NCBI GenBank assembly: GCA_019240375.1
Contig: JAFAYN010000073.1
Location: 1 to 12,731, forward strand
Length of the DNA: 12,731 nucleotides
DNA from: Gemmatimonadota bacterium
GTDB lineage: Bacteria; Gemmatimonadota; Gemmatimonadetes; Longimicrobiales; Longimicrobiaceae
Reading direction: 5' to 3'
Within the stretch, counting starts at the first letter, position 1. Every line of letters begins with the position of its first letter. Below, piece by piece: positions 8 to 12,731 of the stretch. The notes under the pieces are model-generated. The model was not told the origin of the DNA. It did not search any database and saw only the letters and a program-made list of their open reading frames with translations. Both the position numbers and the translations under genes were made by a program.

Positions 8-68
8 GACATCGGCCGGAAAGGCCCCGCACGGCACAGCGCCCGTGGCGGGGCCTTTTTTCGTGCCC
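8..68 (+). terminator. Intrinsic terminator inside a conserved module-head element (copy 1)
   Basis: The hairpin starts with AAAGGCCCCGC (20-30) pairing with GCGGGGCC plus T's (48-58). ACGG (31-34) pairs with CCGT (43-46), G47 is bulged, and the loop is CACAGCGC (35-42). Six T's (56-61) follow, the hallmark of rho-independent termination. The flanks (GACATCGGCCGG before, CGTGCCC after) recur at 11694-11756 around a hairpin with compensatory base changes. It probably ends a transcript that began left of the window, or it is a leader attenuator for the genes from 172; the sequence left of base 1 is needed to decide. A weaker alternative pairing of GGCC 14-17 with GGCC 23-26 would compete with the terminator stem. 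Confidence 0.85.
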
Positions 69-171
69 CGCATCCGCGGGCAGCGGCCCGCCCATTCGCC
101 CCTTCCACCGCGGCCGGGCGGCGGAAAGGGGAGCCCGGTCCGGCCCAACTTCCACTCCAGAGGAGAACGCA
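69..171 (+). promoter_or_regulatory. Structured 5' leader and ribosome site of module 1
   Basis: About 100 nt lie between the terminator and the first gene. A hairpin GCGGGC (76-81), loop agcg, GCCCGC (86-91) is followed by a larger one: CCCCTTCC (99-106) with GGAAAGGGG (123-131, one bulged A), and inside it CCGC (108-111) with GCGG (118-121). A good Shine-Dalgarno sequence, GAGGAG at about 160-166, stands before the GTG at 172. No promoter resembling the consensus is visible here, so transcription must come from further left or from a weak promoter. Whether the hairpins regulate anything is inference. Confidence 0.5.
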
Positions 172-579
172 GTGAGCTATTCGAGCGTGAACGAGCTGTC
201 CAGCGCGGTGGCCGTGTACCTCCAGGGGGACGACGGGCTGACGGACCTGGTCAGCGGGATCCAGGTGCTGAGCGCGCCCCCTGCTTCCTCGCCGCCGTAC
301 GTCCGGTTCGGCGAGAAGCGCGAGAGCAGCGCCCGCACCTTCTCGCGCGACGGAATGCAGGTCTCCATGGGCCTGGAGATCGCCGTGGCCGGGGACTCCG
401 ACCAGACCGCACTCGAGGTCTACAACATGGTCAAGGGGAGCATCGAGCAGGGCCAGCTGCTCATGCCGACCTTCCGCGTCGTGGAAAGGTCGGTCTGGCT
501 GGAGAAGACCAGTCTGGACGCCGACGGGGTCACGTGGCGGGCGTTCGCGCGCCTCGACGCGATCGTGCAGGCGCTGTAG
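172..579 (+). CDS. Tail completion protein, DUF3168-like
   Basis: This 135-residue protein has the length and pattern of the DUF3168 / tail-completion family (SPP1 gp17 or HK97 gp10 type), which sits at the head-tail interface and helps finish the top of the tail tube. What is seen: an N-terminal helix with short polar and hydrophobic alternation, a PPYVRFG strand near residue 42 (matching the family's 'PYV.lg' motif), a beta strand with a variable loop, a helix (QTALEVYNMVKGSIEQ), and a C-terminal strand pair around LDADGVTWRAFARLD. The GTG start at 172 is chosen because GAGGAG lies 6-12 nt upstream and the protein then has the expected size. It is the first gene of module 1, in the usual place just before the tail tube gene. 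Only remote similarity is recognised, so the exact role is inferred from family and position. Confidence 0.75.
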   Translation: MSYSSVNELSSAVAVYLQGDDGLTDLVSGIQVLSAPPASSPPYVRFGEKRESSARTFSRDGMQVSMGLEIAVAGDSDQTALEVYNMVKGSIEQGQLLMPTFRVVERSVWLEKTSLDADGVTWRAFARLDAIVQAL

Positions 580-630
580 TACCCACGCAGTTCAACCCGA
601 TCCAACACACCCAATTAGGAGAAGCACACC

Positions 631-1029
631 ATGGCCATCGCCGGAAAGACCCTCGTCGTCAAGGTCGGCACCGTCTCCACGGGTCCCTTCAACCTCGTGC
701 AGGAGCTCAAGGACGCCTCGTTCAGCCAGTCGGGGAGCAACCAGGACGTCAGCACCTTCGACTTCGACTGGGTCAAGCGGGTGCAGGGGCTCAAGGACGG
801 TTCCTACTCGCTGAGCGGCTTCTACAACCCGACCGACACCAACGGCCAGGTGGCGATCCGCAACGCGTGGCTCAACGACACCGTGCTGTTCGTCCAGTAC
901 CTGCCGAACGCCACCAACGGGTTCCAGCAGGAGGTGAAGGTCTCGAAGTTCGACATCAAGGCGAGCGCCAACGGCGCCACCGAGCTGTCCGTCGAGCTGG
1001 AAGGCAACGGCCCGATCACCGCCGTCTGA
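631..1029 (+). CDS. Tail tube (major tail) protein, first paralog
   Basis: 132 residues, starting at an ATG preceded by TTAGGAGAAG, one of the best ribosome sites in the window, which suits a protein needed in many copies. The pattern resembles TP901-1-type tail tube proteins: VQELKDASFSQSGSNQDVSTFDF near residues 25-45, the core motif RVQGLKDGSYSLSGFY at about 50-65, then strands ending in a typical C-terminal ELSVELEGNGPI. Such proteins stack as hexameric rings to form the inner tube. The next gene encodes a longer protein with the same core motif, so the two look like tandem paralogs. There are no Cys residues or membrane segments. It lies between the tail completion gene and the chaperone pair, the canonical order in siphophage tails. 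Alternative: this copy could be a minor tube or tail-terminator ring rather than the main tube. Confidence 0.75.
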   Translation: MAIAGKTLVVKVGTVSTGPFNLVQELKDASFSQSGSNQDVSTFDFDWVKRVQGLKDGSYSLSGFYNPTDTNGQVAIRNAWLNDTVLFVQYLPNATNGFQQEVKVSKFDIKASANGATELSVELEGNGPITAV

Positions 1030-1042
1030 CCCGGAGGCAAGC

Positions 1043-1684
1043 ATGGCCACTGCAGGCCGCAAGGCCCAGGTGAAGGTCGCGGGGTCTCCCGTCGCCTTCA
1101 CCAACGAGCCGACCACGTCGCTCGGCAACAGCATGGACTTCCAGGTCACCGCAGCCACCAAGCGGGTCTGGGACCGCACCGCCGCCATCGTCGTGGGGAC
1201 GTCGGGCGACGGAGGCACCACCTACACGACGGCCGCCGCCGGCACCTACACGGTGAACCGGCTCACGGGGACCATCTCGTTCCTGCTCCCGCAGCTCGGC
1301 CCGCCGCTGGTGCGGGTGAGCGGCTCGTACCTCCCGCTCTCCGTCGTGGGAGAGGCGAGCGAGTACAGCTACTCCCTCACGGCCAAGAACGCCGAGTTCT
1401 CGCGCCTGGGCGACATCTACACCAGCCGTGCGCAGACGCTCAAGGACGTGACCGGGTCGCTCTCCCGCTGGTACGCGGCGGACCCGTACTTCACCAACGC
1501 GCTGACGGCGGAAACGCCCGTCATCCTGGAGTTCTACGCCAACTCCGGCACCGCGCCCGACCTGCGCTGCTGGGCGCTGGTGGGGAAGGAAGAGATCAAG
1601 GCCGCCATGGACGGGCTGGTGGAAACGACCGTCTCGTGGGAGGGCTTTTCCGACACCGAAGGGAGGATGATCAGCCTTGTCTAG
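1043..1684 (+). CDS. Tail tube-like protein, second paralog with insertion
   Basis: 213 residues; the ATG at 1043 has CCGGAGGC just upstream. The core motif RAQTLKDVTGSLSRWY (about 129-144) matches RVQGLKDGSYSLSGFY of the preceding protein. The following TPVILEFYANSG and C-terminal LVETTVSWEGFSDTEG also align in style with a tube fold. The extra N-terminal segment (GTYTVNRLTGTISFL, near 68-82) resembles the beta insertion seen in many major tail proteins. It may form part of the tube, a decorated major tail protein, or the ring next to the tail completion protein. The gap to the previous gene is 13 nt, and its last 8 nt overlap the chaperone start, so it is operonic. It has one Cys (LRCWALVGKEE). 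That it is a tube-fold protein is likely; which of the two paralogs is the main tube protein cannot be told from the sequence. Confidence 0.7.
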   Translation: MATAGRKAQVKVAGSPVAFTNEPTTSLGNSMDFQVTAATKRVWDRTAAIVVGTSGDGGTTYTTAAAGTYTVNRLTGTISFLLPQLGPPLVRVSGSYLPLSVVGEASEYSYSLTAKNAEFSRLGDIYTSRAQTLKDVTGSLSRWYAADPYFTNALTAETPVILEFYANSGTAPDLRCWALVGKEEIKAAMDGLVETTVSWEGFSDTEGRMISLV

Positions 1685-2063
1685 CATCAGAGAGAGGATC
1701 CTGGCCGCGCAGGACCTGCGGTCGGAGACGGTGACGATCCCCGAGTGGGACGTGACCGTGGAGGTCCGCGGGCTCACCGGGACGCAGCGGGCCCGCCTCA
1801 TGAAGTCCGGCTTCGACGCCAGCGGCACGGTGGACTTTGAGCGGCTGTACCCCGAGCTGGTGATCGCCAGCACCTTCGACCCGGCCACCGGGGAGGCGGT
1901 GTTCGGCGAGGCGGACCGCGACGCCCTGAACGGGAAGAGCGGCTCGGCGCTGGAGCGGCTGGCCCAGGCCGCCATGCGGGTGTCGGGCCTCAGCCCCGAC
2001 GCCACGGCGGCCGCGGAAAAAAACTCCGAAGCAACCCCGAGCGACGCTTCTACTTCGAGCTAG
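1677..2063 (+). CDS. Tail assembly chaperone, short (gpG-like) product
   Basis: 128 residues starting with TTG at 1677, 8 nt inside the preceding gene; GGGAGG at 1661-1666 is the ribosome site. It sits between the tube genes and the tape measure gene, the fixed place of the chaperone that binds the tape measure and tube subunits during tail assembly (lambda gpG type). The segment VTIPEWDVTVEVRGLTGTQRARLMKSGFDASG (about 19-50) resembles the 'vevpeWg.~vvvr.ltg.er' start common to this group, followed by LYPELVIASTFDPATGEAVF. The tail after the slippery site (NSEATPSDASTSS) is low-complexity, as expected for a normal-termination tail. Ribosomes that shift -1 at 2018-2024 make the longer product described separately. 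Chaperone assignment rests on position, motif style and the frameshift signal. Confidence 0.8.
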   Translation: MSSIRERILAAQDLRSETVTIPEWDVTVEVRGLTGTQRARLMKSGFDASGTVDFERLYPELVIASTFDPATGEAVFGEADRDALNGKSGSALERLAQAAMRVSGLSPDATAAAEKNSEATPSDASTSS

Positions 2064-2212
2064 CGGAGAAGCTGGGGTGCACGGTGGCGGAGCTGCTGGA
2101 CCGGATCTCCTCGGAAGAGATCACCGAGTGGGCGGCGGTCTGGAAGATCCGCAACGAGGAGGAGGAAAGGGCGCACCGCGACGCGGAGCGCCGATCGGGA
2201 AGGCGGCGGTGA
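1677..2212 (+). CDS. Tail assembly chaperone, -1 frameshift (gpGT-like) fusion, 178 residues
   Basis: The first 116 codons are shared with the short product; a -1 shift at the heptamer 2018-2024 then joins a 62-codon frame (2024-2209) ending at TGA 2210-2212. The extension contains FYFELAEKLGCTVAELLDRI, then SSEEITEWAAVWKIRNEEEERAHRDAERR. 'LAEKLG.TVAELL..IS..E.tEW' is the recognisable hallmark of the gpT-like chaperone extension in siphophage and many myophage tails. That domain has no ribosome site or start codon of its own nearby, which supports expression by frameshifting. In lambda the two products occur at a set ratio and both are needed for tail assembly but are absent from the virion. 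The stop codon lies in a hairpin loop (2196-2225), which is unusual. Confidence 0.85.
2018..2024 (+). other. Programmed -1 ribosomal frameshift site, A_AAA_AAC
   Basis: In the frame of the chaperone gene the codons are GAA (2016), AAA (2019) and AAC (2022), giving the classical slippery heptamer A_AAA_AAC in correct phase. Seven A's in a row stand out in this GC-rich DNA. A modest hairpin GAAGC (2028-2032) with GCTTC (2046-2050) begins 3 nt after the heptamer, and CTCCG (2024-2028) could instead pair with CGGAG near 2064-2068; either might stimulate slippage, but neither is strong. Confidence 0.85.
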
Positions 2213-2225
2213 CGCCGCCTTCCCG
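2196..2225 (+). repeat. 13-bp perfect stem with GTGA loop at the chaperone stop
   Basis: CGGGAAGGCGGCG (2196-2208) is perfectly complementary to CGCCGCCTTCCCG (2213-2225). The 4-nt loop GTGA is a GNRA tetraloop and contains the TGA stop (2210-2212) of the frameshift product. There is no T-run, so it is not a standard intrinsic terminator. It may stabilise mRNA 3' ends, pause transcription, be an RNase processing site, or influence termination of translation. The structure is certain from the sequence; its role is not. Confidence 0.8.
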
Positions 2226-2338
2226 CGCCTCCGGGCCAGGGCTCGGTCCGGAGGCTTCCATTCCGTCCCCACGGGGCGGCGCCACCCGGCCACGAGCCGT
2301 GGGGCGGACCTTCATGGCTTCTTCCAAGAGATGAGCCT
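2226..2338 (+). other. Gap between chaperone and tape measure genes
   Basis: No gene is seen here. A second inverted repeat, CCCCACGG (2267-2274) with CCGTGGGG (2297-2304), adds to the structure of this gap. Most other gaps in the module are 1-13 nt, so a 126-nt spacing (from 2213) in mid-operon is unusual. The frame of the tape measure gene is open all the way back to the TGA at 2210-2212, but it contains no ATG, GTG or TTG in that stretch, and its Pro/Arg-rich translation looks like noncoding GC-rich DNA. Confidence 0.5.
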
Positions 2339-4705
2339 GTGATTGGATCCAACGACGCGTCCGGCGGCTCGGGAGGAGCCGTGGACGCTGCAATGATCGT
2401 CAGCCTCGCCAAGGAGTTCAGGCTCGCCTCCATCGGCGTGGCGAACGGGCTGGCGGAGATGACCATCGCCGCGCGGGGGCTCGCGTTCCCGCTCATCACG
2501 GCCACGGAGGCGCTCAACGGCCTGGCCATGCAGATGACGACGGCCGGTGAGACGTTCGCCACCCTGACCACGACGGTCGGAGAGACGGAGCAAGCCATCG
2601 CGAGCCTGGAAAAGACGATGGTGGATATGCGAGGGCCTGCGCTCCTTCAGGAGTCGCTCGCCGGCCTGGAGACGGAGGCCGAGTTCACGCGAGACGGGAT
2701 CGACAACCTGCTGTCGCCAGCGCTGGCCAACCTCCTCCCCATCATGGGGAGGATCTACAACGCCGTGGGTGTCCTGGCCACCGGCGCGACCCGGTTCGGC
2801 TATGCCGTCGGACAGATCCTTGAAACGATCGGCAATACGGCCAAGGATGCACTCACCAGCCTGGAAAGCGCCGCCAGTGGGCTGATGGGGCTAGCGGGCA
2901 TCGGAGGCGCGGCAGGCAATGCCGGTGAGAAACCGGATCCCATAGCCGGCGCGCTCGCGTCGCCATGGGCGGGCGTCGTTTCAGGTATCTTTCCCTGGGG
3001 CGGGCTAGGGAAAGACGCGCTCGCCGCGCTGTACCAGACGCTCTCCCAACCTGAACGGGAAGCGAGGGAGAGGGAGGCTCAGCACGCCCAAGCGCTCCAG
3101 CAACTGCACGCGCGCGTCGCCGTGCTCCCCGAGAGCCAGACGGCCACCGAGCTGCGGAGCCTCCGGGCCCGGCAGCCACAGCTCGACCGGGCGCGCGACG
3201 ACCTGATGGCACGAGCGGAACGGGAGAAAGAAACCGTCATCACGGAGGTGGATGGCGGAGGCGGCCGGTACACCCATACCCGGGACATGCCCACGCCGGA
3301 GACTGCCAGGGCACTCCTTGATGCTGATTGGGCAGCCAAGCAGAACCGTGTGAATGTCGAGTTCCACAACGAGCGGCTCCAGATCATCGCCCGGGCCCGC
3401 CAGCACACCGAGGATGCCCTCGGTCCGCTGCGCGCCACGCAGGACATGCTCGGCGGCCAGGTGACCGGGTGGGGGACTGCGGCGGACCAGGCCGCGTTTG
3501 CCCGTCCTTCCACCGGGGGAGGGCTGCGGGACGAATTCGCCGCCGCAATGAACCTGGTACGGGACCTGGAGTACCGCAGCCGCGAGAACCGCGATCCCGA
3601 GGCCGATCTTCCGCAGCTTCGCAGCATCCTGGAGAACGCACGCGGCAAGGCTCTTAGCGGCAACGGCGAGGAGCGGCGAGTTTACCAGGCCATCCAGATG
3701 ATGGTCGAGCGCGCGCTGGTCGCCTTCGGTCCCAAGCCAGCCACGACTTCGGCGGATGCGGGTGCACAGACACCCGCCACCCCCGAGACGGCACCCCCTC
3801 TACAGGAAACCCCCGCCGACACGGGGACGGCCTCGGACGGGGGCACGGCTCCGCGAGGGTTCCTCCAGACCATCACCGAGTTCCGGAGGACGGCGGTGGC
3901 GGCGATCGGCAACTTGGCGAAGAACGGTTGGGGCCGGGCTAACGACATCGCCGGGCAGCAGGTCCAGTCGTCGGGAAGCGCCTTCGCGGGGCTGCTCGCG
4001 AACTTCACCCCCCTTGGGATGGTCGCGACCCTTCTGGAGGGAGTTCTCCAGGGCCTCGCCCCGCTGATCGACTCGCTCAAAGAGCCGCTCCGCATCGTCG
4101 GCACCATCCTGGGCAAGGCGCTCGCGCCCATCCTCAAGGCCCTGTTCCCGATCTTCAAGGGGATCGCCATCGCCGCGACCTGGGTGGGACAGATCTTCTT
4201 CACCATCGCCGGGGGGATCCTCCGGGCGATCGGGGCCCTCATCAAGGGGCTGGGAAAGGCCATCGACAAGATCCCCGGGCTGGGGGACTTCGGCCTCAAG
4301 AAAGCCGGCCAGGACCTCATCGACATGGGGAACGGCTTCAAGGACAGCGCCCAGGCGCTGAAGGAGGGGCGCGAGGAGATCAAGAAGCTGGAGTTCGGCG
4401 ACACCGCGGACAAGGTGGAAAAGCTCAACGAGCAGCTCACCAACGCGCCCGAGGGGTTCAAGGTGGCGCTCGCCCGCTTCGAGGCGGTGGCGCCGGAAAC
4501 CGCGCGCGTCCCCTCGCCCCCCACCGACCGCGGCGGCACCACCGCCAGCGGCGAGACGGGCGCCTCGGAGAGCGGCCCCGTCCACATCGGCAACGTCCAG
4601 ATCGTCTCCAACAACCCGGAGGAGATCTGGAAGCAGCTCAAGCGGGTCATGGAACGGGAAAACTTCCGCTCCACCGGCTCGCTCCTCACCCCCGCACTGG
4701 TCTGA
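2339..4705 (+). CDS. Tail tape measure protein
   Basis: 788 residues from the GTG at 2339. Tape measure proteins extend inside the tail tube, set its length, and exit first on infection. Layout: an N-terminal helical region rich in Ala/Thr/Leu; a hydrophobic stretch at about 128-161 (LLPIMGRIYNAVGVLATGATRFGYAVGQIL); charged, Gln/Glu/Arg/Ala-rich coiled-coil-like helices at about 236-463; a Pro/Thr-rich linker at about 464-508; a long hydrophobic block at about 549-640 (LLEGVLQGLAPLI, ILKALFPIFKGIAIAA, TIAGGILRAIGALIKGL) typical of the membrane-active part; and a C-terminal HIGNVQIVSNNPEEIWKQLK segment. By the usual rule of about 0.15 nm per residue the tail would be roughly 120 nm. The start is uncertain: GGAGGAG at 2372-2378 would also serve GTG 2381 or ATG 2393, which would shorten the protein by 14 or 18 residues. 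Confidence 0.9.
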   Translation: MIGSNDASGGSGGAVDAAMIVSLAKEFRLASIGVANGLAEMTIAARGLAFPLITATEALNGLAMQMTTAGETFATLTTTVGETEQAIASLEKTMVDMRGPALLQESLAGLETEAEFTRDGIDNLLSPALANLLPIMGRIYNAVGVLATGATRFGYAVGQILETIGNTAKDALTSLESAASGLMGLAGIGGAAGNAGEKPDPIAGALASPWAGVVSGIFPWGGLGKDALAALYQTLSQPEREAREREAQHAQALQQLHARVAVLPESQTATELRSLRARQPQLDRARDDLMARAEREKETVITEVDGGGGRYTHTRDMPTPETARALLDADWAAKQNRVNVEFHNERLQIIARARQHTEDALGPLRATQDMLGGQVTGWGTAADQAAFARPSTGGGLRDEFAAAMNLVRDLEYRSRENRDPEADLPQLRSILENARGKALSGNGEERRVYQAIQMMVERALVAFGPKPATTSADAGAQTPATPETAPPLQETPADTGTASDGGTAPRGFLQTITEFRRTAVAAIGNLAKNGWGRANDIAGQQVQSSGSAFAGLLANFTPLGMVATLLEGVLQGLAPLIDSLKEPLRIVGTILGKALAPILKALFPIFKGIAIAATWVGQIFFTIAGGILRAIGALIKGLGKAIDKIPGLGDFGLKKAGQDLIDMGNGFKDSAQALKEGREEIKKLEFGDTADKVEKLNEQLTNAPEGFKVALARFEAVAPETARVPSPPTDRGGTTASGETGASESGPVHIGNVQIVSNNPEEIWKQLKRVMERENFRSTGSLLTPALV

Positions 4706-4708
4706 CGA

Positions 4709-5050
4709 ATGGCATTCCTGATCGTGAACGGACAGACCGTCCCCGTGGCCGTGGACGGCGCATCGGTGGACTACGAGCTGATCGGCGACCGGGCGCGCGC
4801 CTTCGACGGGACCATGCGCTCCACCCGGCGCGCCACCAAGCGCAACTGGAAGGTGAAGACCGCCCCCATGGCGGTGGCCGCCGCCGACCAGCTCACCACC
4901 AGCCTGCTGGCCACCCCGCCGATCACCTGCAGCGGCGACATGCTGGGCGGAAGCGTGGCCTGCGACGCCGAGGTCACCGGCGTGACCTTCAGCCCCGCCT
5001 CCGGCGGACTGTCGCGTCGCGCCGTCGAATTCACCCTGCACGAGGTGTGA
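4709..5050 (+). CDS. Small tail protein between tape measure and hub (possible distal-tail protein)
   Basis: 113 residues, ATG at 4709, three bases after the tape measure stop and one base before the GTG of the hub gene, so its translation is probably coupled to both. This is where siphophages encode the distal tail (Dit) or a small tail-tip protein that connects tube and hub. The sequence begins MAFLIVNGQTVPVAVDGASV, followed by basic RSTRRATKRNWKVKTAPM (about 37-54), and ends with a beta-rich GLSRRAVEFTLHEV; overall it looks like a small beta-sandwich. Two Cys residues (TCSG near 72, VACD near 82) might pair. It is short for a classic Dit (about 200-250 residues), so it may keep only the ring-forming domain. 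I do not recognise a specific family. Confidence 0.55.
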   Translation: MAFLIVNGQTVPVAVDGASVDYELIGDRARAFDGTMRSTRRATKRNWKVKTAPMAVAAADQLTTSLLATPPITCSGDMLGGSVACDAEVTGVTFSPASGGLSRRAVEFTLHEV

Positions 5051-5051
5051 C

Positions 5052-8000
5052 GTGCGTACCGTAACCGCAGCGCAGAGCACCGTCCTGTCGGGAACCACCT
5101 ACCGGGTCAGCGCGCGTGTCTGGGTCAAGGACGCGTGGGGGGTGTTCCAGAACCTCTCCGCCCTGGCCGGGCGCGACTGGCTGAGCGAGGTGTCGTGGGA
5201 CGACGACGTGGACCAGTCGGTGTCGCAGTGCACGGTGCAGCTCTGGCGCGAATCGTACGCGCAGAGCCTGTCCCCGATGAAGAAGAGCTCGCCGCTGAAC
5301 CAGAACGCGCAGGGCGTCTTCGGCCCGCTCCTCGACATGGGGCGAGAGATGAAGCTGGAGGTGGCGACCACGGCGGTGGGAGTCGATCCCGCCGCCACCG
5401 ACTGGCAGCTCGTCTTTCACGGCGACGTGGACGAGGTGGACTGGGGGCGGGGGGAGTCGCGCGTCACCCTGGTGGCCCGCGACCTGGGGGCGCGCCTCCT
5501 GGACCGGTACATCGAGACCGAGCGCGCCTACCCCGCCGCCGACCAGGCCAGGGACGCCAACGGCGCCGTGGCCGTGGAGGCGGTGATGCAGCGCATCCTG
5601 GACGACAACCTGGGCGCGGGGGCCGTGACCCTGTGGGTGCCGGCCTCGCCCGGGTGGATGATCAAGGACTTCAAGCAGGAAAAGGACTCGGTCCTGGAGG
5701 CGCTGCGCAAGCTGGCGCAGCAGTTCGGGTGGGACCTGCGCTACCGGTGGGACGCGGGGACGTCGAGCTTCCGGCTCAAGCTCTTCGCCCCGCAGCGCAC
5801 CCGGGTGGTCAACGTCCCCACGGACCCGGCCAACACGGCGCCGGACTGGACCTTCGGGCCCTCGCGCTACCTGGACGTCTCCACCCTGCGCCTGGCCCGC
5901 GCGGGGATCCGCAACTACATCCGGGTGCAGTACCTGGACAGGAGCACCACCCCCAGCCAGCTCCGCACGTCCGACGCGTACGACCCCGACAGCATGGCCA
6001 AGTACGGGCGGCGCTTCATGGAGCTGCAGGAAGACACGGAGAAGAGCGCCATCGACACCCCGGCCGAGGCCGCCCAGCTCGCCCAGTCGGTGCTGAGCGA
6101 CCTGGCCGACCCGCGGGCCGAGCAGGAGGTGGAGATGCACTTCTTCTGGCCGGCGGAGCTGGGCGACTACTACCTGTTCCAGGCCAACGGCGTCCACTAC
6201 GACCAGGACCAGGTGGGCGCGGTGGTGGCGGTGAAGCACCAGATCACCCGCGAGCAGCAGCGCACCACCATCAACACCCGGGGGCGTGCCGCCGGCGCCT
6301 ACCGCGACTGGCTCCGCCGCGAGATCCGCGTGGCGGGAACGCAGGACGATCCCGAGGTGGGGTACCGCGTGGAGGTGCTGGAGAACGCCGCAGGCACCAC
6401 GGGGACGCTGCGCCTCACGCTGACCGACCCCGGCGCGCTGGTGCAGTCGGTGGGGTTCTACGTGGCCGCGGGGCCGGCGGCGCGCACCGGCCCCTCTCCC
6501 GCCGACCGCACCCCCTCGGCGGGGGTGTACGAGAAGGACGTGACGCTGCACGAGCAGCACACCTCCATCATCGAGCCGGTGATCACCCTGAAGAGCGGGC
6601 GGGTGATCCAGCCGGGCGCAGAGACCTTCGACCAGGGCGCCACCCCGGTGGTCCTCTCTCTCTCGGGCGAGGTGAACGACGCCGGCGCGGTTGTCGCCAC
6701 CGCACGCGGCGACAGCGACACGCAGAGCTTCCGCATCGCCCTGCGCAAGGACCGGATGCCCACCACGGCCGAGGTGCGCGCCGCGGCGGTCTACCCGGGC
6801 GGCGGGACGGCGGCCCGCGAGGTGGTGACGACCCTCCCGGGGACGCTCGCCCCCGGCGAGATTGCCTACCTGGGCGCGCTGGCGTACGCGGACACGGGGG
6901 GGCTGACGCTGGAATCGGTGCTCGCCACCACGCAGACCAAGCGGTCGGACCGGGTCCCGCCCTCCCTCTCCCCCCGCTCGGTGCTGAACACCGCGCGCGA
7001 CGCCGCCGACCTGTACGTGGTGCTGGAGTCGCTCACGGCCGAGCAGGTTCGGCTGCACGTCAAGGACGAGGCCACCGGCACCACCTGGAGCCTGGTGACC
7101 GGCCAGACGGACACCACTCCGCTCTTCGTGGCGAGCGGGACGGAGATCGGGATCAACCACTGGTTCTACAGCGGGACCGGCTCCACGGCCAAGAAGCTGG
7201 CCGCCTTCCCGCTGGTGCGTGACCAGGTCACCCGGGTGCTCTTCCAGGCCGAGGGGAAGAACCTGGGGGCGAAGTCCACCTGGGTGCCACTGACGCTCAA
7301 CGTCAAGGAGCAGCCCTGGCTGGAGTCGGTGGACGTGGTGTGGGACGAGGGGACCGACACCCTGACGATGCGCGGCATCGGAGGCGCCTTCACCCGCAGC
7401 GCGCGCATCGAGTTCGCGGACAACGAGGGGTTCACCGGGACCACGCTCAGCGGCTCCAGCGTGGCCGCTTCCGACGGGGGCTCCTTCTACGCCACCCGGA
7501 CGCTGGCGGCGGCGGAGCGCGGCAAGACCTGGCACGCCCGCATCACCCCGTTCAACGGCGCGCTGGTGAGCGGGGCCACCTCCGGCACCGGGGGTGTCCC
7601 CCAGCGCGACAGTGTACAGGTCCCCGCCAGCGAGAGCGGCGGGATCGAGCGACCCACCGCGGCCATCGTGTACGTGTCGGAAACGATCTCGGCCTTCACC
7701 CTGGAGTACCAGGGGACGCTGGGGGCCGGCGGCACGGGGCCGCTCCAGTACCGCACCCGGACCAACACCGAGGGAACCAACGGGACGTGGAGCGCCTGGA
7801 CCGCGCTCCCCACCCCGTTCCCGCAGCAGGTCGTCACCCGGCTGGGCCGGCTGAACCGCGTGGTCACGCTGCAGGTGCAGGACGCCGCGGGGCGCACCGC
7901 GACCGACACCTTCCTGGTCCCTGCGCGCTTCGGCGGCGTGGACCCGACGGACGGCGGGGTGATCTTCGACCAGCCGTACAGCGGGCGCCCTTCCACGGAC

Positions 8001-10202
8001 ACCCCCGCGTACGGCCACGAGGGACGGCGCCGGGTGGACACCGTCTACGACACGGATGGGGGGATCGGCTACAACGTCACCATCCGCGACCCCGACCTGG
8101 GAGCGGGGCAGTACCGGAGCATCCGCGACACGGCCAAGCGGGCGCAGACCGGCCTCGCCGCGGTGGACGCGGCGGGGAACGGCGGGGAGATCGCGCGGAA
8201 CGCCCCGCTGGCGCGGCTGGCGCCCGTCCTCCTCGACATCAGCTCCACCACCGGCCGCATCGCCACGGTGGGCGGCGCGCGGGCGGAGCAGATCCCGTCC
8301 GGGCTCTCGGGAGCGCAGCTCTCCCCCAACCCCGACTTCCTGAACGGGCTGACGGGCTACTACGTCTACAACAACTCGGGGGGGACCCACGTCCAGCTCT
8401 TCCACGAGACGGACGTCACCGCGCCCAACACCAGCGGAAAGCGGATGCGCGTCGGCGTGAGCGGCACCAACACCAGCCCGGGGAACGGCGGGTTCACCCT
8501 CTCGCTCCTGCCCACCGACGGGGCGGTGGCCCCCGGGTACTACCGTCGCGGCGCGGAGATCGTCTTCACGATCCGGGCGTGGATCCCGAGCGGGCTCACC
8601 ATCCTGTTCGCCAGCAACGCAGTGGGGAACGAGGCCGTCCAGACCTGGCTCAGCTCCCAGACGGGAACGAGCGCATGGGCCACGTACACGTTCCGGCTCA
8701 AGGTGGGCACCACCGGGACGTTCAACACCACGGGGTTCTTCTGGGTCAGCGGGGGCACCCCGCCCTTCGAATGGTACGTGGCGATGGTGGACGCCATCGA
8801 CGTGAGCGCGCAATCCACGGTGTTCGCCGGCTCCAACCTGCGGGCATCCTCCGGGGTGCGGCTGGGCGACGCCGACATCGTCACCTCGCAGGGGACCGCC
8901 GCCGACACGTCCAGCGTGGGCGGGAGGGCGGCGGGCACGGTGCGCGACGAGGCGATGGAGGGGAACCGCAAGTCCAACTACGTCATGCCGTACGGGGACG
9001 GCCTGCTCCGCGAGAACCTGCAGGTGAACGACCCCGGCGTCACCTGGCGCAACCTCACGGACGTGGGGCGCCGCTCGCAGGCGGGGCTGACGTACGCCAA
9101 CCTGGACGGGACCGGCGGAGAGATCGCGAAGGTCGCCCCGCTGGCCCGGCTGTCGCCCGTGCTCCCGGCGATCCACGCGTCCACGGGGCTGCTGAACCGC
9201 GCCATCGCCACGCACGACGGGGGCAGGATCGCCTCGGAGCAGGCGGTCACCGACTTCGGCAACCTGATCTACAACCCCAGCTTCGAGGTGGACGCCAACG
9301 GGGACGGGGTGGGGGACGGGTGGACGCCCCACTTCGAGGGCGGGGGCGGAGCGTACTCGCTGGTCCAGGGGATCCACGGGAGCTACGCGCAGTCGCAGAC
9401 CCCGTCGGACGGGGTGTCCTGCGCCCCTTTCCGCATTCGTGCCGGGGAGCGATACCGCTTCGGCGTCACGGTGGGGAACCCCAGCGGGACCGAGCAGAAC
9501 GGGTTCTACTTCCGGGTGCTCTGGTATGGCGACACCAACGACTTCTCGCGCGGTGGCGCCATGCAGTTCACGGACCTGGTGACCGGGGACCAGGCCGTCC
9601 TCAACATCTCGGGGTGGACGGACTTCAGCGGGGTGCTGGAGGCGCCCTCGGGAGCCCGGTTCTGCCGGGTGACGTTCTACACCTGGAGCCCGCGCACGGT
9701 GGTGCTGTACTTCGACCGGGCCTACGCCCAGAGCGAGGACGCGTTCGAGGGGCGGCGGCACGTGGAAACCCTTTCCGACTCCGACCGGCTCCTCAAGTCC
9801 GGGGTGCTCCAGTACGATGGGGCGCGCGAGGTGAAGCTGGCCCAGTTCGCCCAGGCCGGGGTGGTGCAGGACGGCACCACGATCAGCTTCAACCCGCCGT
9901 TCCAGAGCGTCCCGGCGGTGATGTTCGGGCCCGGGCAGGTCACCTACGACCCCGCGCTGGGGAGCGTGCGGCAGCGGACGGTGGCGGAAGCGGTGGGGCT
10001 CACCCCCTCCGGCTTCACCGCGCGCATCAAGGTGCGCCAGGCCGACCCGGTGCTGACCACCAACACCCTGTCTCCCAGCAGCGGGATCTGCACCAAGAAC
10101 AGCGCCACCGAGGCGTACGACGACGTGTACGTCTTCAACTACTCGGTGAGCATCAACTCGTACACCACGAGCAGCGGAACCACCTTGAGGGAGCCCATCT
10201 GA
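5052..10202 (+). CDS. Tail hub and fibre protein (receptor-binding), 1716 residues
   Basis: GTG start at 5052, with the previous stop one base upstream. Residues 1 to about 420 look like a tail hub (gp27/Tal-like): WDDDVDQSVSQCTVQLWRE, a segment reading FHGDVDEVDWGRGESRVTLV, and a stretch with WVPASPGWMIKDFKQEKDSV suggest the beta-barrel hub that closes the tube. About 425-960 is a series of Ig/FN3-like beta domains (for example RPTAAIVYVSETISAFTLEY near 867). About 1008-1716 is a modular fibre: repeat A (1008-1070), a jelly-roll-like segment (1090-1254, NPDFLNGLTGYYVY...), repeat B (1325-1384), a second jelly-roll-like segment (1404-1563, NLIYNPSFEVDANGDGVGD, with a DxNxDGxxD calcium-type motif), and a C-terminal domain (about 1580-1716, VQDGTTISFNPPFQSVPAVM) like lectin-type fibre tips. 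It probably binds the cell surface. Domain names are by pattern, not by search. Confidence 0.8.
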   Translation: MRTVTAAQSTVLSGTTYRVSARVWVKDAWGVFQNLSALAGRDWLSEVSWDDDVDQSVSQCTVQLWRESYAQSLSPMKKSSPLNQNAQGVFGPLLDMGREMKLEVATTAVGVDPAATDWQLVFHGDVDEVDWGRGESRVTLVARDLGARLLDRYIETERAYPAADQARDANGAVAVEAVMQRILDDNLGAGAVTLWVPASPGWMIKDFKQEKDSVLEALRKLAQQFGWDLRYRWDAGTSSFRLKLFAPQRTRVVNVPTDPANTAPDWTFGPSRYLDVSTLRLARAGIRNYIRVQYLDRSTTPSQLRTSDAYDPDSMAKYGRRFMELQEDTEKSAIDTPAEAAQLAQSVLSDLADPRAEQEVEMHFFWPAELGDYYLFQANGVHYDQDQVGAVVAVKHQITREQQRTTINTRGRAAGAYRDWLRREIRVAGTQDDPEVGYRVEVLENAAGTTGTLRLTLTDPGALVQSVGFYVAAGPAARTGPSPADRTPSAGVYEKDVTLHEQHTSIIEPVITLKSGRVIQPGAETFDQGATPVVLSLSGEVNDAGAVVATARGDSDTQSFRIALRKDRMPTTAEVRAAAVYPGGGTAAREVVTTLPGTLAPGEIAYLGALAYADTGGLTLESVLATTQTKRSDRVPPSLSPRSVLNTARDAADLYVVLESLTAEQVRLHVKDEATGTTWSLVTGQTDTTPLFVASGTEIGINHWFYSGTGSTAKKLAAFPLVRDQVTRVLFQAEGKNLGAKSTWVPLTLNVKEQPWLESVDVVWDEGTDTLTMRGIGGAFTRSARIEFADNEGFTGTTLSGSSVAASDGGSFYATRTLAAAERGKTWHARITPFNGALVSGATSGTGGVPQRDSVQVPASESGGIERPTAAIVYVSETISAFTLEYQGTLGAGGTGPLQYRTRTNTEGTNGTWSAWTALPTPFPQQVVTRLGRLNRVVTLQVQDAAGRTATDTFLVPARFGGVDPTDGGVIFDQPYSGRPSTDTPAYGHEGRRRVDTVYDTDGGIGYNVTIRDPDLGAGQYRSIRDTAKRAQTGLAAVDAAGNGGEIARNAPLARLAPVLLDISSTTGRIATVGGARAEQIPSGLSGAQLSPNPDFLNGLTGYYVYNNSGGTHVQLFHETDVTAPNTSGKRMRVGVSGTNTSPGNGGFTLSLLPTDGAVAPGYYRRGAEIVFTIRAWIPSGLTILFASNAVGNEAVQTWLSSQTGTSAWATYTFRLKVGTTGTFNTTGFFWVSGGTPPFEWYVAMVDAIDVSAQSTVFAGSNLRASSGVRLGDADIVTSQGTAADTSSVGGRAAGTVRDEAMEGNRKSNYVMPYGDGLLRENLQVNDPGVTWRNLTDVGRRSQAGLTYANLDGTGGEIAKVAPLARLSPVLPAIHASTGLLNRAIATHDGGRIASEQAVTDFGNLIYNPSFEVDANGDGVGDGWTPHFEGGGGAYSLVQGIHGSYAQSQTPSDGVSCAPFRIRAGERYRFGVTVGNPSGTEQNGFYFRVLWYGDTNDFSRGGAMQFTDLVTGDQAVLNISGWTDFSGVLEAPSGARFCRVTFYTWSPRTVVLYFDRAYAQSEDAFEGRRHVETLSDSDRLLKSGVLQYDGAREVKLAQFAQAGVVQDGTTISFNPPFQSVPAVMFGPGQVTYDPALGSVRQRTVAEAVGLTPSGFTARIKVRQADPVLTTNTLSPSSGICTKNSATEAYDDVYVFNYSVSINSYTTSSGTTLREPI
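8073..8262 (+). repeat. Fibre repeat A (residues about 1008-1070)
   Basis: This encodes NVTIRDPDLGAGQYRSIRDT, then AKRAQTGLAAVDAAGNGGEI and ARNAPLARLAPVLLDISSTT. It matches the second copy at 9024-9203 in order and spacing: (V)(N)DPG/DLG, R(S/N)(I/L)xD, RxQ(T/A)GL, D(A/G)xGxGGEIA, APLARL(A/S)PVL, STG. Such repeats usually form a repeated collar or linker before a binding domain in fibres. Confidence 0.75.
9024..9203 (+). repeat. Fibre repeat B (residues about 1325-1384)
   Basis: This encodes VNDPGVTWRNLTDVGRRSQA, then GLTYANLDGTGGEIAKVAPL and ARLSPVLPAIHASTGLL, clearly homologous to the copy at 8073-8262. Each copy is followed within about 20 residues by a jelly-roll-like segment, so the duplicated unit is repeat plus binding domain. 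Segments before repeat A (EGRRRVDTVYDTDGG), before repeat B (EGNRKSNYVMPYGDGLLREN) and before the C-terminal domain (EGRRHVETLSDSDRLLKSG) also resemble each other. Confidence 0.75.
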
Positions 10203-10534
10203 TGCCCATATCTCCAGGCGGTACCACCGTCACCTACGGGGGCCAGGTCAGCGTGGGATTCTACACCCGCTACAACGGCTCGGGATGGGTGCTCCGCGGC
10301 ACCCGGAGCTACTCCAACTACAGCGGGTCGGCCACCACCCGAAGCTACTCGTCCTCCGTGAGCGTGGACGGGCTGGGCTACGGCGCGGAATACATGGTCC
10401 AGGTGACCGACCAGTACGACCTGGGAGGGAGCGTTTCCCTCACCAGCGTCACCTACAAGACGGGGTCGGTGAACGAAGCCGGAGCCACCCCGGGAGACGT
10501 GAGCGTCCCCTTCATCGCCCTGGGAGGGGCCTGA
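10202..10534 (+). CDS. Small beta-rich protein after the fibre gene, unrecognised
   Basis: 110 residues; the ATG shares a base with the fibre stop (TGATG), which implies coupled translation and matched dosage. The sequence is rich in Gly, Ser, Thr and Tyr with alternating hydrophobics (SVGFYTRYNGSGWVLRGTRS, then SVSVDGLGYGAEYMVQVTDQYDLGGSVSLTSVTY), as in a single FN3/Ig-like beta sandwich. It has no Cys, membrane segment or signal peptide. In tail operons small genes in this position encode fibre-tip proteins, fibre chaperones or attachment factors; the many exposed aromatics would suit a surface-binding domain. The last residues (GDVSVPFIALGGA) are hydrophobic. Function is inferred only from position and composition. 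Confidence 0.65.
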   Translation: MPISPGGTTVTYGGQVSVGFYTRYNGSGWVLRGTRSYSNYSGSATTRSYSSSVSVDGLGYGAEYMVQVTDQYDLGGSVSLTSVTYKTGSVNEAGATPGDVSVPFIALGGA

Positions 10535-10537
10535 CCG

Positions 10538-10942
10538 ATGCCTAACCCGCACGACGTGGAATCGCCCGTGACCCGGTGGCACCCGGACAACCGGGCGGAA
10601 AAGAACCGCAGGAAGCACCAGGCCGGGAAGGCGAAGGGGCAGGGCGTCGGCGTGGCCGACGCCCCGGCGCAGGCCGCCTCACCCGCACCCTACACCCCCG
10701 ACGAGCTGGACCTGGAGCGGGTGCGCTGCGCCTGCGGGCGCTGGACCTTCGCCTTGTGCATGGTGGACGTGCAGGGCGTCCCCGCCGCTATCCGCGGCGA
10801 TGCCGAAGAGGTGTGCGACGGCTGCTGGACGGCGTGGGTGCGCGAGGGGAAGCTTTCGCGCGCCGAGCTCGCCGCGTACCAGGGCGCGCCGCAGGAAGTG
10901 GTGGAACACATCCGGAGCCACGGGAACCCGCACCTCCCGTGA
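10538..10942 (+). CDS. Small Cys-rich protein with basic N-terminus, possible zinc ribbon
   Basis: 134 residues; ATG at 10538, GGGAGG about 10 nt upstream, 3 nt after the previous stop. The N-terminal 35 residues are strongly basic (RWHPDNRAEKNRRKHQAGKA). A Pro/Ala linker leads to VRCACGRWTFALC (CxC near 63-65 plus another Cys) and, about 30 residues on, EEVCDGCW (CxxC). The two pairs are spaced as in small zinc ribbons, with a closing helix (LSRAELAAYQGAPQEVVEHI). It could bind nucleic acid or a partner protein; a structural tail role is less obvious. It lies late in the tail operon, just before the 206-residue gene and the next module's promoter. Family not recognised; the zinc-site call is a guess from the Cys pattern. 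Confidence 0.65.
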   Translation: MPNPHDVESPVTRWHPDNRAEKNRRKHQAGKAKGQGVGVADAPAQAASPAPYTPDELDLERVRCACGRWTFALCMVDVQGVPAAIRGDAEEVCDGCWTAWVREGKLSRAELAAYQGAPQEVVEHIRSHGNPHLP

Positions 10943-10974
10943 CCCGTCCCCCGAACCCGACGAGAACCGATCTC

Positions 10975-11595
10975 ATGACGACCCAGACCGACACCGAACA
11001 GCCGCCCCTGACCACGACCGAGACGCCGGGCGGGCCCGGCGCCGCCGCGCCGCACCTGGACGCCAGGCCCGCCCGCGAGACCTACAACGGCCCCGTGGTC
11101 TTCTGCCTCGTGAGCGGCGAGCCCGACTTCAGCGGCTTCGTCTTCGGCCCGCAGGGGCTGCGCTTCCTCCCGGTGGGGCGGATCCCCGACGGACGCCTGG
11201 TGGGGATCGCCGCCTGCTACCCGTCCGAGAAGGCGTACGTGCAGGCAGCCCACCCCGACGAGTACCTGGCCGGCTCGTGGAACGAGCTCCTGGCGCGTAC
11301 CGAGTACGCCCCGTACGTGGCCTGGCAGGTCCTCACCCGCAACCGCGGCTGGGTGGCGGAGCAGGACCTCGCCGCCGGCGACCAGGTGGAGCGCACGGTC
11401 CGCGGCCACAAGCTCCGCCGTCCGCCCCTGGCCGACGCGGCGCAGGGCTTCGACCCCGACTTCGTCCCGGCCGTGGGCACCCTGCGCGTGGTGTCCGTCG
11501 AAGGGGCGGACGACCGGGTGCAGATCGTCCGCACCGGGCCGGACGGCAGTGCCGGCTGGTACGAGGTGCAGAGCACCCCGGCCGCGCGCGGGTGA
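10975..11595 (+). CDS. Unrecognised 206-residue protein, last gene of module 1
   Basis: The ATG at 10975 is chosen because the open frame further upstream overlaps the Cys-rich gene and reads as Arg/Pro-rich noise. The ribosome site is weak (CGAGAA, 10-15 nt upstream). About 40 N-terminal residues are Thr/Pro/Gly/Ala-rich and probably disordered (TDTEQPPLTTTETPGG). Then a folded part: NGPVVFCLVSGEPDFSGFVF, GLRFLPVGRIPDGRLVGIAA, a helical YPSEKAYVQAAHPDEYLAGS, and near the C-terminus VGTLRVVSVEGADDRVQIVR. There is no signal peptide or membrane segment. It is followed by the junction with the module 2 promoter. No family is recognised; it could be a tail accessory protein or an unrelated cargo gene at the module end. 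Confidence 0.65.
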   Translation: MTTQTDTEQPPLTTTETPGGPGAAAPHLDARPARETYNGPVVFCLVSGEPDFSGFVFGPQGLRFLPVGRIPDGRLVGIAACYPSEKAYVQAAHPDEYLAGSWNELLARTEYAPYVAWQVLTRNRGWVAEQDLAAGDQVERTVRGHKLRRPPLADAAQGFDPDFVPAVGTLRVVSVEGADDRVQIVRTGPDGSAGWYEVQSTPAARG

Positions 11596-11603
11596 GTCCC
11601 GTC

Positions 11604-11617
11604 TGCTCCGTGGAGCA
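11604..11617. promoter_or_regulatory. Dyad TGCTCC-GT-GGAGCA, possible operator
   Basis: A perfect 6-bp inverted repeat with a 2-bp centre lies 20 nt upstream of the -35 box. The 2-nt gap is too tight for a good RNA hairpin, so a protein-binding operator is more likely than a terminator. Downstream, TGACA, TGACA and TGACG recur at 11630, 11639 and 11647 and overlap the -35 region. The role is inferred. Confidence 0.4.
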
Positions 11618-11637
11618 AACAAACGATCGTGACACCG

Positions 11638-11666
11638 TTGACAGTTTGACGGGATTTCGATAGCTT
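11638..11666 (+). promoter_or_regulatory. Putative sigma70-type promoter of module 2
   Basis: The -35 box TTGACA (11638-11643) is perfect, the spacer is 17 nt, and the -10 box TAGCTT (11661-11666) matches TATAAT at 3 of 6 positions. The surrounding DNA is AT-richer than the rest of the window. A start near 11672-11674 would give a transcript that meets the terminator at 11706-11749 after about 35 nt. Confidence 0.5.
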
Positions 11667-11693
11667 TACCGTAGAAATTCCGAACACACTCCT

Positions 11694-11756
11694 GACATCG
11701 GCCGGAAAGGCCCCCACTCGGCACAGCGCCCGAGGTGGGGGCTTTTTTTCGTGCCC
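11694..11756 (+). terminator. Intrinsic terminator inside the conserved module-head element (copy 2)
   Basis: GCCCCCAC (11710-11717) pairs with GTGGGGGC (11735-11742), extended by A/T pairs and one G-T wobble. TCGG (11718-11721) pairs with CCGA (11730-11733), G11734 is bulged, the loop is CACAGCGC (11722-11729), and seven T's follow (11743-11749). Compared with copy 1 at 8-68, the flanks, loop and bulge are the same, while stem pairs have changed on both sides (ACGG/CCGT to TCGG/CCGA; CCCCGC/GCGGGG to CCCCCAC/GTGGGGG). That is covariation, good evidence for an RNA structure under selection. GGCC 11700-11703 with GGCC 11709-11712 is a competing small hairpin. Confidence 0.85.
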
Positions 11757-11891
11757 GTGAGTTCGAGTCCGACTTCGGCGGGGCCGGCGTTCCTGCACCG
11801 GCGCAAACCCCGGCATCACGGCAAACTGGCGCTTCGGTCGCCCGTTCGCCGGCCCCGCACCCGCCCACCACGTACTAGGGGACATAACGAG
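11757..11891 (+). promoter_or_regulatory. Module 2 leader with 12-bp inverted repeat and ribosome site
   Basis: GCGGGGCCGGCG (11778-11789) is perfectly complementary to CGCCGGCCCCGC (11847-11858), with a 57-nt interior that holds a smaller hairpin capped by CTTCGG (near 11829-11843). AGGGG (11877-11881) lies about 10 nt before the ATG at 11892 and is the likely ribosome site. The leader is also folded in module 1, but with unrelated sequence. No gene is seen here. Confidence 0.5.
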
Positions 11892-12281
11892 ATGCGTTGG
11901 GATGAAGCCATCACCGCCGTGATGCAGCGGCTGAACGACGACGCGGTGCTGACCGCCGCCCTGGGCAGCGACCACATCGTCCGGGCGAGCGAGTCCACCT
12001 CCCCGCCCCTTCCGGGGGTCGTCTACCAGGTCACCAGCAGCCAGCAGCGCGAGAACGAGGAGGTGGTCTTCACCCGCTGGGACATGCGGGCGGCCACCCT
12101 GGACGAGGTGGTCGCCATTGAGGAGCGCCTCCGCGCCAACCTGGACCGGACCCTCCCGGAAACGGTGAGCGGCCTCCCGATGTGGCTGGAGTACGTGGAC
12201 GGATGGGACGTTCCGGAGGCACCCGCGGGCACCGCCCAGCGCACCGTCCTGTTCCGCTTCACGGTGCTCAGGGAGCACTGA
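11892..12281 (+). CDS. Tail completion-like protein of module 2
   Basis: 129 residues from the ATG at 11892; the frame is open back to 11751, but that part is terminator and leader. The layout resembles the DUF3168-like group: an N-terminal helix with a DDAVLTAALGSDHIVRASES start, a PPLPGVVYQVTSS strand (about 38-50), a helix DEVVAIEERLRANLDRTLPE, and a terminal strand TAQRTVLFRFTVLREH. Similarity to the module 1 counterpart (172-579) is only in pattern and size, so the two modules are old or separately acquired rather than a recent copy. It is the first gene behind the second terminator element, just as its counterpart follows the first. Alternative: another small neck or tail-terminator protein. 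Confidence 0.6.
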   Translation: MRWDEAITAVMQRLNDDAVLTAALGSDHIVRASESTSPPLPGVVYQVTSSQQRENEEVVFTRWDMRAATLDEVVAIEERLRANLDRTLPETVSGLPMWLEYVDGWDVPEAPAGTAQRTVLFRFTVLREH

Positions 12282-12348
12282 AACCGCGTGCCGCACTTCC
12301 GCGGCGCACCGCCCGAAAGGGCAAACTATCCTCACAGGGAGCAAAGAG
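12282..12348 (+). promoter_or_regulatory. Gap with GAAA-capped hairpin and strong ribosome site
   Basis: A small hairpin GCCC-GAAA-GGGC (12311-12322) is a GNRA-type tetraloop stem. GCCGC and GCGGC near 12290-12306 form another. GGGAG (12337-12341), 7 nt before the ATG at 12349, is a strong ribosome site suiting a highly made tube protein. Confidence 0.5.
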
Positions 12349-12731
12349 ATGACCTTCCCCGACCTGCTGTCCACCTTCAAGTCCATCGGCAAGGGCTACG
12401 TCTTCGTGGGCGACACGTCCACCGCCGGCGGGCTCCACCCGCTCGGCCTGACCGAGGGCGAGATCAAGGTCGCGTTCGCGCAGGAGTTCAACGACCTGAA
12501 GTTCCCGGAGTACACCGGCCCGGCCGTGCACGACCGCAAGCTGACCGGCGAGAACGTCACCGTCACCATCCCGCTGATCCTGGGCGACCCGGACCTGTTC
12601 GAGCGTCTGAGCCCGGTTCAGAAGTCCAGCGGCGGCTACAGCACGCAGCAGAAGGTGGAGACCACCTCGCTGGTGATCTTCCCCGAGAACGAGATGAGCC
12701 CCAGCACCGGGATCAGCTACGCCCCGGCGGC
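12349..12731 (+). CDS. Tail tube-like protein of module 2, 3' end outside window
   Basis: The ATG at 12349 follows a strong GGGAG site; the frame is open to the window edge (127 codons seen). It reads TFPDLLSTFKSIGKGYVFVG, then LGLTEGEIKVAFAQEFNDLKF and, near residue 65, KLTGENVTVTIPLILGDPDL, followed by FERLSP. The early 'G.L..GEIKV.F..E...L' and 'R.LTGE.V.VTIPL' run of strands is common in phage major tail and related structural proteins. It lies after the tail completion-like gene, the place of the tube gene in module 1, yet it does not resemble either tube paralog there, so the modules use different tube families. The assignment is by pattern and position only. Confidence 0.6.
   Translation, partial: MTFPDLLSTFKSIGKGYVFVGDTSTAGGLHPLGLTEGEIKVAFAQEFNDLKFPEYTGPAVHDRKLTGENVTVTIPLILGDPDLFERLSPVQKSSGGYSTQQKVETTSLVIFPENEMSPSTGISYAPA

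Follow-up and report, generated by a model that had tools for sequence, protein, structure and literature searches.

Tandem phage-tail operons in Longimicrobiaceae, each headed by a covarying hairpin leader that may gate headless, tailocin-like tails

Why should two phage-tail gene modules stand one behind the other on the same strand, each preceded by its own copy of one hairpin-forming element? This question is raised by a stretch of 12,731 nucleotides (nt) from a Gemmatimonadota bacterium of the family Longimicrobiaceae (JAFAYN010000073.1, assembly GCA_019240375.1, forward strand), referred to here as the window, which is the whole of contig C430 of the metagenome-assembled genome (MAG) G000 (3.46 Mb, 632 contigs, 62% complete). 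Because the window is an entire contig of so fragmented and incomplete a MAG, neither of its flanks is readable. An earlier note, made from the letters of the window, had described a full tail module at 172-11595, followed by a second module and with one element in front of each, and this description was confirmed by profile matches to tail gene families and by the two element copies, which are 87% identical over 70 nt (longest common word, 21 nt). The explanation that we favour, with a confidence that is evenly balanced, is that these are tandem tail operons, each with a covarying hairpin leader that would gate the transcription of headless, tailocin-like tails.

The first copy of the element (8..64, + strand) is a leader hairpin with a T6 tail, which scored 85.6 bits with R1, a covariance model of four copies, and folded at -30.5 kcal/mol (z -3.1); any promoter that it may have would fall outside the contig. 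The second copy (11694..11751, + strand) is a leader hairpin with a T7 tail, a score of 81.7 bits with R1 and a fold of -29.2 kcal/mol (z -3.8). The two copies have in common GACATCGGCCGG on their 5' side, a long stem interrupted by a single bulge, and CGGCACAGCGCCCG in the loop region. Further copies were found at the equivalent place in L003, a viral-collection contig (2201-2258), and on contig C179 of genome G007 (5817-5874). When these were aligned with the two window copies, all 64 cells of 16 pairs were paired, and three pairs displayed double changes. An alignment of 26 copies, which was fitted to R1, had 95.2% of its cells paired and double changes in 11 of the 16 pairs, and none of 500 shuffles scored as high on any of five measures. 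A model guided the fitting of alignments A5 and A6, and the pair counts of A5 are accordingly biased towards it; A4 was aligned without structure. Searches of Rfam gave no match at the gathering score in the window and none at E<=1 in three loci holding five copies. The hairpin is a covarying family that is new to the libraries searched.

The family is concentrated around the window's own lineage. R1 gave matches at E<=0.001 in 16 of 395 genomes of the phylum, and all matches of at least 46 bits fell within the window's family. R2, a covariance model of 26 copies, matched at E<=0.001 in 17 of the 21 genomes of that family; its weak matches resemble ordinary terminators, many of them on both strands. 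The earlier note had proposed a covariance-model search, and the search with the four-copy model indeed yielded further copies in relatives and in the window's own genome, where four were added (contigs C621 and C178). Word searches had been misleading on this point, because strict ones recovered just the two copies already seen in the window from its own genome and nothing from 40 relatives, and seven own-genome word matches with two mismatches were not counted as copies. On C621 (locus L103), a plus-strand frame of 68 amino acids (aa) at 18-224 nearly duplicates, in inverted orientation, the C-terminus of the neighbouring, element-headed 336-aa gene (246-1256). For the analyses below, 46 strong copies were defined as R2 matches at E<=1e-6 in 24 loci chosen for holding matches (L105 has none), several of which neighbour each other on one contig; the copies are not independent, since they include close pairs and come from related genomes. 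Weaker R2 matches were followed in 14 loci, and one of these, in G008, reaches 52.3 bits, on a par with many of the 46 copies. Genes of the relatives were called with a simple caller trained on the genes of the window.

To judge the element as a leader or a terminator, its surroundings were compared across these copies. In the window, a sigma-70-like promoter (TTGACA-17-TAGCTT, 9 of 12 consensus matches) lies at 11638..11666 on the + strand, 27 nt before the second copy. With a scan that demanded at least four matches in the first hexamer, a fixed A and T in the second and 9 of 12 overall, a promoter was found within 100 nt upstream of 16 of the 45 testable copies, whereas 500 mononucleotide shuffles gave 0.5 on average and never more than 4. 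A spacer of 17 is present in 14 of the 16, and several of them carry CCGAA motifs right after the -10 hexamer. A stricter sigma-70 scan found no site in the window, because it demanded four matches in each hexamer. The next called gene lies on the strand of the element in 43 of the 46 copies; nine copies stand between divergent genes and three before a convergent gene. Among 14 mostly weak matches, read by eye, one was divergent and seven were convergent (Fisher p 0.02 against the strong set); with G008 moved into the strong set, the ratio of divergent to convergent becomes 9:4 against 1:6 and p rises to 0.057. These data indicate that the element is likely, in most of its copies, a 5' leader hairpin that is promoter-linked or heads a unit, and more than a mere terminator. 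The earlier label of a terminator element fits the T6 and T7 runs of the two window copies but not this general placement.

The units that the element heads are varied and recur among relatives. Full tail modules are headed in the window (module A, and module B at its start), in L003 and in G007; the order in L003 is a fibre gene and a phrog_1401-like gene, then the element, then module A. Arrays of element-headed units were also found in G001, G002, G013 and G020. Fibre-only units, present in G002, in G013 and at two loci of G020, combine one or two short genes, in most cases including a phrog_1401-like one, with a gene for a protein that is related to the tip protein of the window (residues ~460-526 of the latter); G001 has a related fibre unit with other small genes, and the fibre of G002 ends in an S74 chaperone domain. 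Holin-like genes, so labelled by reading of sequences that match no family, occur in the arrays of G001, G002, G007 (18247) and G020, and the G002 array holds an M15 peptidase (PF08291, E 1.3e-9). Large secreted proteins include one with an RHS repeat found by hidden Markov model (HMM) in G020 (C180), and others in G001 and G013 that are RHS-like by reading only, one G013 piece having been scanned and matching no family. Haloperoxidase/PAP2-like and/or beta-helix proteins are headed in G000 (C178), G015, G016, G017, G018 and G020; the haloperoxidase label is a reading, PAP2 scores being below the cut-off or absent, and one beta-helix score is above it. Close pairs of copies were seen on C178 and in G013 and G020. 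On C172 of G020 (L137; contig positions 18910-20475), three consecutive proteins that read as tail-collar-like precede a haloperoxidase-like unit with the element at its head.

A chromosomal site was recognised for the closest flanked relative of module A. On G007 C179, module A and its leader lie between thiolase, helix-turn-helix (HTH), IrrE-like and Ogr-like genes and the genes cspA and murB (the identity of murB was confirmed in G013). Among the 56 called genes of C179 (20 examined by HMM, the rest by eye), none was recognised as a head, packaging or integrase gene, and the sheath (PF04984) matches of G007 are on C131 and C152, not on C179. This tail-only chromosomal island favours a tailocin-like reading. 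The window itself has tube, chaperone, tape measure and tip genes and no sheath, as expected of an F-type tailocin; none of the module A genes is a sheath gene, and the PF04984 matches of G000 lie outside C430, on C545 and C6. Within the 12.7 kb of the window, at both ends of which the contig stops, nothing was recognised as a head, packaging or integration gene, and its profile searches recognised no terminase, portal or capsid. Of the sheath, capsid and lysis genes that the earlier note proposed to look for, then, sheath matches turned up off the contig, and no head or lysis gene was recognised in the window. Together with baseplate J (PF04865) matches, the sheath matches suggest a separate contractile system in the same MAG (C545:8182-8664, C6:4628-4909 and C48:7233-7958).

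Related sites differ in what they hold. In G013, thiolase, HTH and Ogr-like genes and murB surround a fibre unit and large secreted-protein genes, and in G014 the HTH and Ogr-like genes and murB occur with two elements. These two elements (C190, L111, 14020-15663) stand near murB with no called gene between them, as might be seen at an emptied or not-yet-filled locus. In G006, G015, G016 and G018, the regulator genes are found near cspA and a murB-like gene, and tail genes are lacking; G015 has a holin-like gene beside them as well. No element was found at these four sites at E<=0.01. The absence of the element from such tail-less regulator-cspA-murB sites indicates that it travels with the units. 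In G001, the HTH gene, cspA and murB are together, and the element array is elsewhere, beside an EF-G-like gene. Further HTH and Ogr-like sites in G018 (C130, L150) and G016 (C15, L151) are followed by a 157- or 173-aa protein and no tail genes. The G000 assembly yielded neither murB nor the Ogr-like gene, which leaves the window unassigned to a chromosomal site. With these relatives in hand, the array of tail units proposed in the earlier note is supported for the window, L003 and the element-unit arrays of G001, G002, G013 and G020, and its tailocin-like part is favoured by the island of G007. From the copy at the left edge alone, contrary to the note, a further tail unit upstream does not follow: that place is occupied by regulator genes in G007 and by a fibre unit in L003. 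Scattering of the element at unrelated genes, which the note would have counted against an array, was seen in part, in that non-tail genes are headed too; yet the strong copies examined head a small, recurring set of units.

Under the explanation of gated tandem tail operons, transcription would start at the promoter, and a leader of ~70-80 nt would fold into the hairpin, at which RNA polymerase would stop or pause unless a trans factor permits passage. One shared factor could in this way switch on tail, fibre, lysis and other cassettes together. The product would be an F-type tailocin-like particle, and two tails made from one locus, as with juxtaposed R and F pyocin clusters, might serve as the alternative tails proposed in the earlier note and might widen the range of targets. 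A bolder extension, which we consider tentative and on the whole unlikely, is a tail regulon that would span the chromosome under a new leader RNA family in the Longimicrobiaceae. One hairpin and one trans factor, perhaps the zinc-ribbon protein of the island, would then switch on whole tails, spare fibres, lysis genes, RHS-like proteins and haloperoxidases as exchangeable cassettes, with several headless tails made from one plug-in locus.

In five arrays (G001, G002, G007, G013 and G014), a small, Ogr-like zinc-ribbon gene precedes an element by 38-81 nt. Across the 21 genomes, eight had both the Ogr-like gene and the element, one the gene only, three the element only and nine neither (Fisher p 0.0075, phylogeny uncontrolled); here the gene was counted at E<1e-10, which excludes weak matches in G009 and G011, and a genome was called element-bearing at 46 bits or more, with G005 and G008 excluded. 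The Ogr-like protein is a weak candidate for the trans factor, and the best so far. A NusG/LoaP-type partner found no support, since NusG copy number does not follow the element over the 21 genomes: G007, G013 and G020 have one copy, and G003 and G009, both without an R2 match, have two, in counts that are incomplete because NusG was not found in four of the 21.

Several observations weigh against gated tail operons, and some of them concern this candidate. The Ogr-like protein of G007 matches PF04606 at E 1.6e-4 with 22.0 bits, below the Pfam cut-off of 26.3. The P2 Ogr site is TGT-N12-ACA; classical Ogr binding found no support, as this site occurs in one of 16 promoter regions. The gene is absent from G020, where three element-headed loci are readable upstream, and also from G000 and G017 (all three genomes are incomplete), and it occurs without the element at the four cspA-murB sites described above. 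Its co-occurrence with the element weakens to p 0.067 when G005 and G008, which have a single copy each (that of G008 between convergent genes), are counted as element-bearing. Of the testable copies, 29 of 45 have no close promoter of 9/12. Many copies cannot be classical intrinsic terminators, because a T run of at least four is present in only 21 of the 46. A competing antiterminator, in which the 5' flank would pair with the 5' arm, was prompted by GGCC-N5/6-GGCC in several copies and was not supported, as the pairing energy of the flank with its own arm was no better than with swapped arms; in a test of its covariation, 413 of 2000 permutations were as good. In the window, a contig that stops at either end, no lysis, head or regulator genes were found, and the element heads haloperoxidase-like and RHS-like genes as well as tails.

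Other explanations account for parts of these data. The modules could belong to an ordinary phage or prophage late region, or to two adjacent prophages, with the hairpin as a phage late-operon leader or terminator. C430 is identical to IMG/VR contig 3300037853_000063 and is classed there as viral, the window lacks any readable flank, and related tail genes lie near genes read as head genes on G007 C5, on G007 C207 and in L073, a 52-kb phage contig; in these prophage-like regions of the two G007 contigs, a weak hairpin follows an Ogr-like gene (C5, L055 12875-12912, 21.5 bits; C207, L069 8558-8616, 23.9 bits). Set against this are the position of the G007 C179 module among chromosomal genes with no recognised head genes, the strong element copies that stand away from tail modules, and the consideration that two different complete tails in one phage would be unusual. 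We consider a phage origin of this kind unlikely, although it is the most serious of the competing explanations. The weak hairpins on C5 and C207 lie near genes read as terminase and portal, and they may reflect a phage ancestor of the island arrangement.

A simpler proposal is that the element is a strong intrinsic terminator whose sequence has been kept through copying along with the cassettes. In each window copy a GC-rich stem leads into a T6 or T7 run, and weaker matches of the family often lie between convergent genes and score on both strands. The window copies, however, are strand-specific (the first scores 85.6 bits against 21.2 bits on the other strand), most strong copies precede genes of the same strand and 16 of 45 come right after a promoter, 25 of the 46 lack a run of four T, and most copies conserve the loop, a part that is dispensable for a terminator. 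This makes a plain terminator improbable. The remaining alternative would place the function in the DNA, as an attC-like or repetitive extragenic palindrome (REP)-like recombination or insertion boundary for the exchange of tail, fibre and toxin-like cassettes. The same element precedes cassettes of differing content, the two elements of G014 have no called gene between them, tail-less sites are element-free, copies occur in close pairs, and the covariation is equally compatible with a DNA cruciform. But the attC core-box motif, GTTRRRY...RYYYAAC, was found as a pair in none of the 46 copies, no integrase was noticed in the gene lists beside the arrays (no HMM search for integrases was made), and the promoter linkage and same-strand orientation indicate a transcribed leader, so that a DNA site appears very improbable.

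The gene content behind the tail assignment is as follows. The region 172-11595 is predicted from its sequence to be a complete, non-contractile phage-tail module with a siphovirus-type gene order. All of its genes are on the + strand. It opens with a gp17-type tail completion protein (172..579; Tail_completion_gp17, PF11367, E 5.4e-8), a family that we take to be the same as DUF3168, and with the major tail tube protein (631..1029; PF06199, E 9.9e-10; phrog_1407, E 1.2e-19), which is 77% identical to that of L003 and 83% to that of G007. A conserved 213-aa protein (1043..1684) has no family match and occupies the same place in L003 and G007. The short form of the tail assembly chaperone (1677..2063; phrog_344, E 6.1e-26) is followed by an extension in the -1 frame (2015..2212), an open frame after an A7 run. 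The chaperone of G007 is likewise trailed by a similar -1-frame reading frame (7889-8017), and the extension is likely a programmed frameshift product of the G/GT type, as predicted from the reading frames. The tape measure protein of 788 aa (2339..4705; phrog_991, E 7.2e-4) was assigned also by position and length; at 0.15 nm per residue, it would correspond to a flexible tail of about 120 nm. It is followed by a conserved tail gene of phrog_1194 (4709..5050; E 9.2e-5), with relatives on G007 C207 and C5 and in G009 and G055, and by the 1716-aa tail tip/fibre protein (5052..10202), which matches phrog_1887 at its N-terminus and phrog_5911; its residues 1-416 are 77% identical to G007. This gene contains an internal repeat (8175-8254 versus 9108-9187, 76% over 80 nt). 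The module ends with a 110-aa protein (10202..10534; no PHROG match), a 134-aa protein (10538..10942; no family match) and, as its last gene, a 206-aa protein (10975..11595; no PHROG match). The nearest named relative of module A belongs to a Gemmatimonadetes bacterium (JAQBQD010000062.1).

Module B (11892-12731) is readable for two genes, both on the + strand. Its tail completion-like protein (11892..12281) matches PF11367 at E 0.0072, below the curated cut-off, and its tube-like protein (12349..12731), cut by the contig end, matches phrog_2175 at E 9e-5. The tube has 15 further relatives of 197-206 aa at 63-80% identity, one of which carries the name Longimicrobiaceae. L073 has homologues of both proteins (35% identity for the completion-like, 44-46% for the tube-like protein) with one short gene between them, after genes read as head genes and before a likely tape measure; these labels are a reading of the gene content of L073, on which no HMM was run. 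It is this position of the homologues that makes the module B pair look like the start of a tail module. BLAST between the two completion proteins and between the two tubes found no similarity at E 0.01, which argues that module B is the tail of another lineage and no recent copy of module A. An AlphaFold model of the module B tube family had a mean predicted local distance difference test (pLDDT) score of 64 and a predicted template modelling (pTM) score of 0.65; Foldseek with this model returned no PDB match at E<=0.001, and its weak top matches were often phage tail proteins.

Pyocin-type loci are described as being under the control of DNA-binding proteins, and a covarying leader hairpin makes RNA-based control of tail production directly testable. 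As a sequence marker, the hairpin can also guide the search for tail, fibre, lysis and secreted-protein units in uncultured Gemmatimonadota, and the relatives suggest that such units may be added or swapped at one locus. In the open-licence papers found on tailocins and phage-tail bacteriocins in Gemmatimonadota and on Longimicrobium riboswitches, titles and the opening lines of abstracts describe no such system.

Four known systems invite comparison. Integron attC sites are likewise imperfect hairpins between gene cassettes; however, attC core boxes were found in 0 of 46 copies, and the elements here are linked to promoters and to cassettes of up to 11 kb. The Ogr/Delta activators of P2-like phages resemble the G007 arrangement in that a small zinc-finger gene lies just upstream of the tail operon, whereas the protein here scores below the cut-off, the Ogr site is present in one of 16 regions and the promoters have near-consensus -35 hexamers. 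As described in the parts of the source consulted (PMC12691694), the LoaP-dependent dfn operon of Bacillus velezensis is long and subject to processive antitermination, with both an intrinsic terminator and a small RNA hairpin in its 5' leader; by that description the likeness lies in the hairpin leader, but the copy number of NusG domains here does not follow the element. The closest likeness in gene content is to F-type tailocins and pyocins, together with rhizoviticin and monocin. According to the sections seen of PMC10811719, few F-type tailocins are known, the R and F pyocin clusters of Pseudomonas aeruginosa are juxtaposed headless tail gene sets, of which the F type is non-contractile, and rhizoviticin, which is without head genes, encodes a DUF3168 protein as well as holin-like and lytic ones. 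As far as these sections go, the likeness lies in tail gene sets, here predicted from sequence, in which no head gene was recognised. Unlike the R and F pyocins, both modules of the window look siphovirus-type as far as they are readable and each unit has its own hairpin leader, from a family that also heads units elsewhere on the chromosome, in a host of a different phylum.

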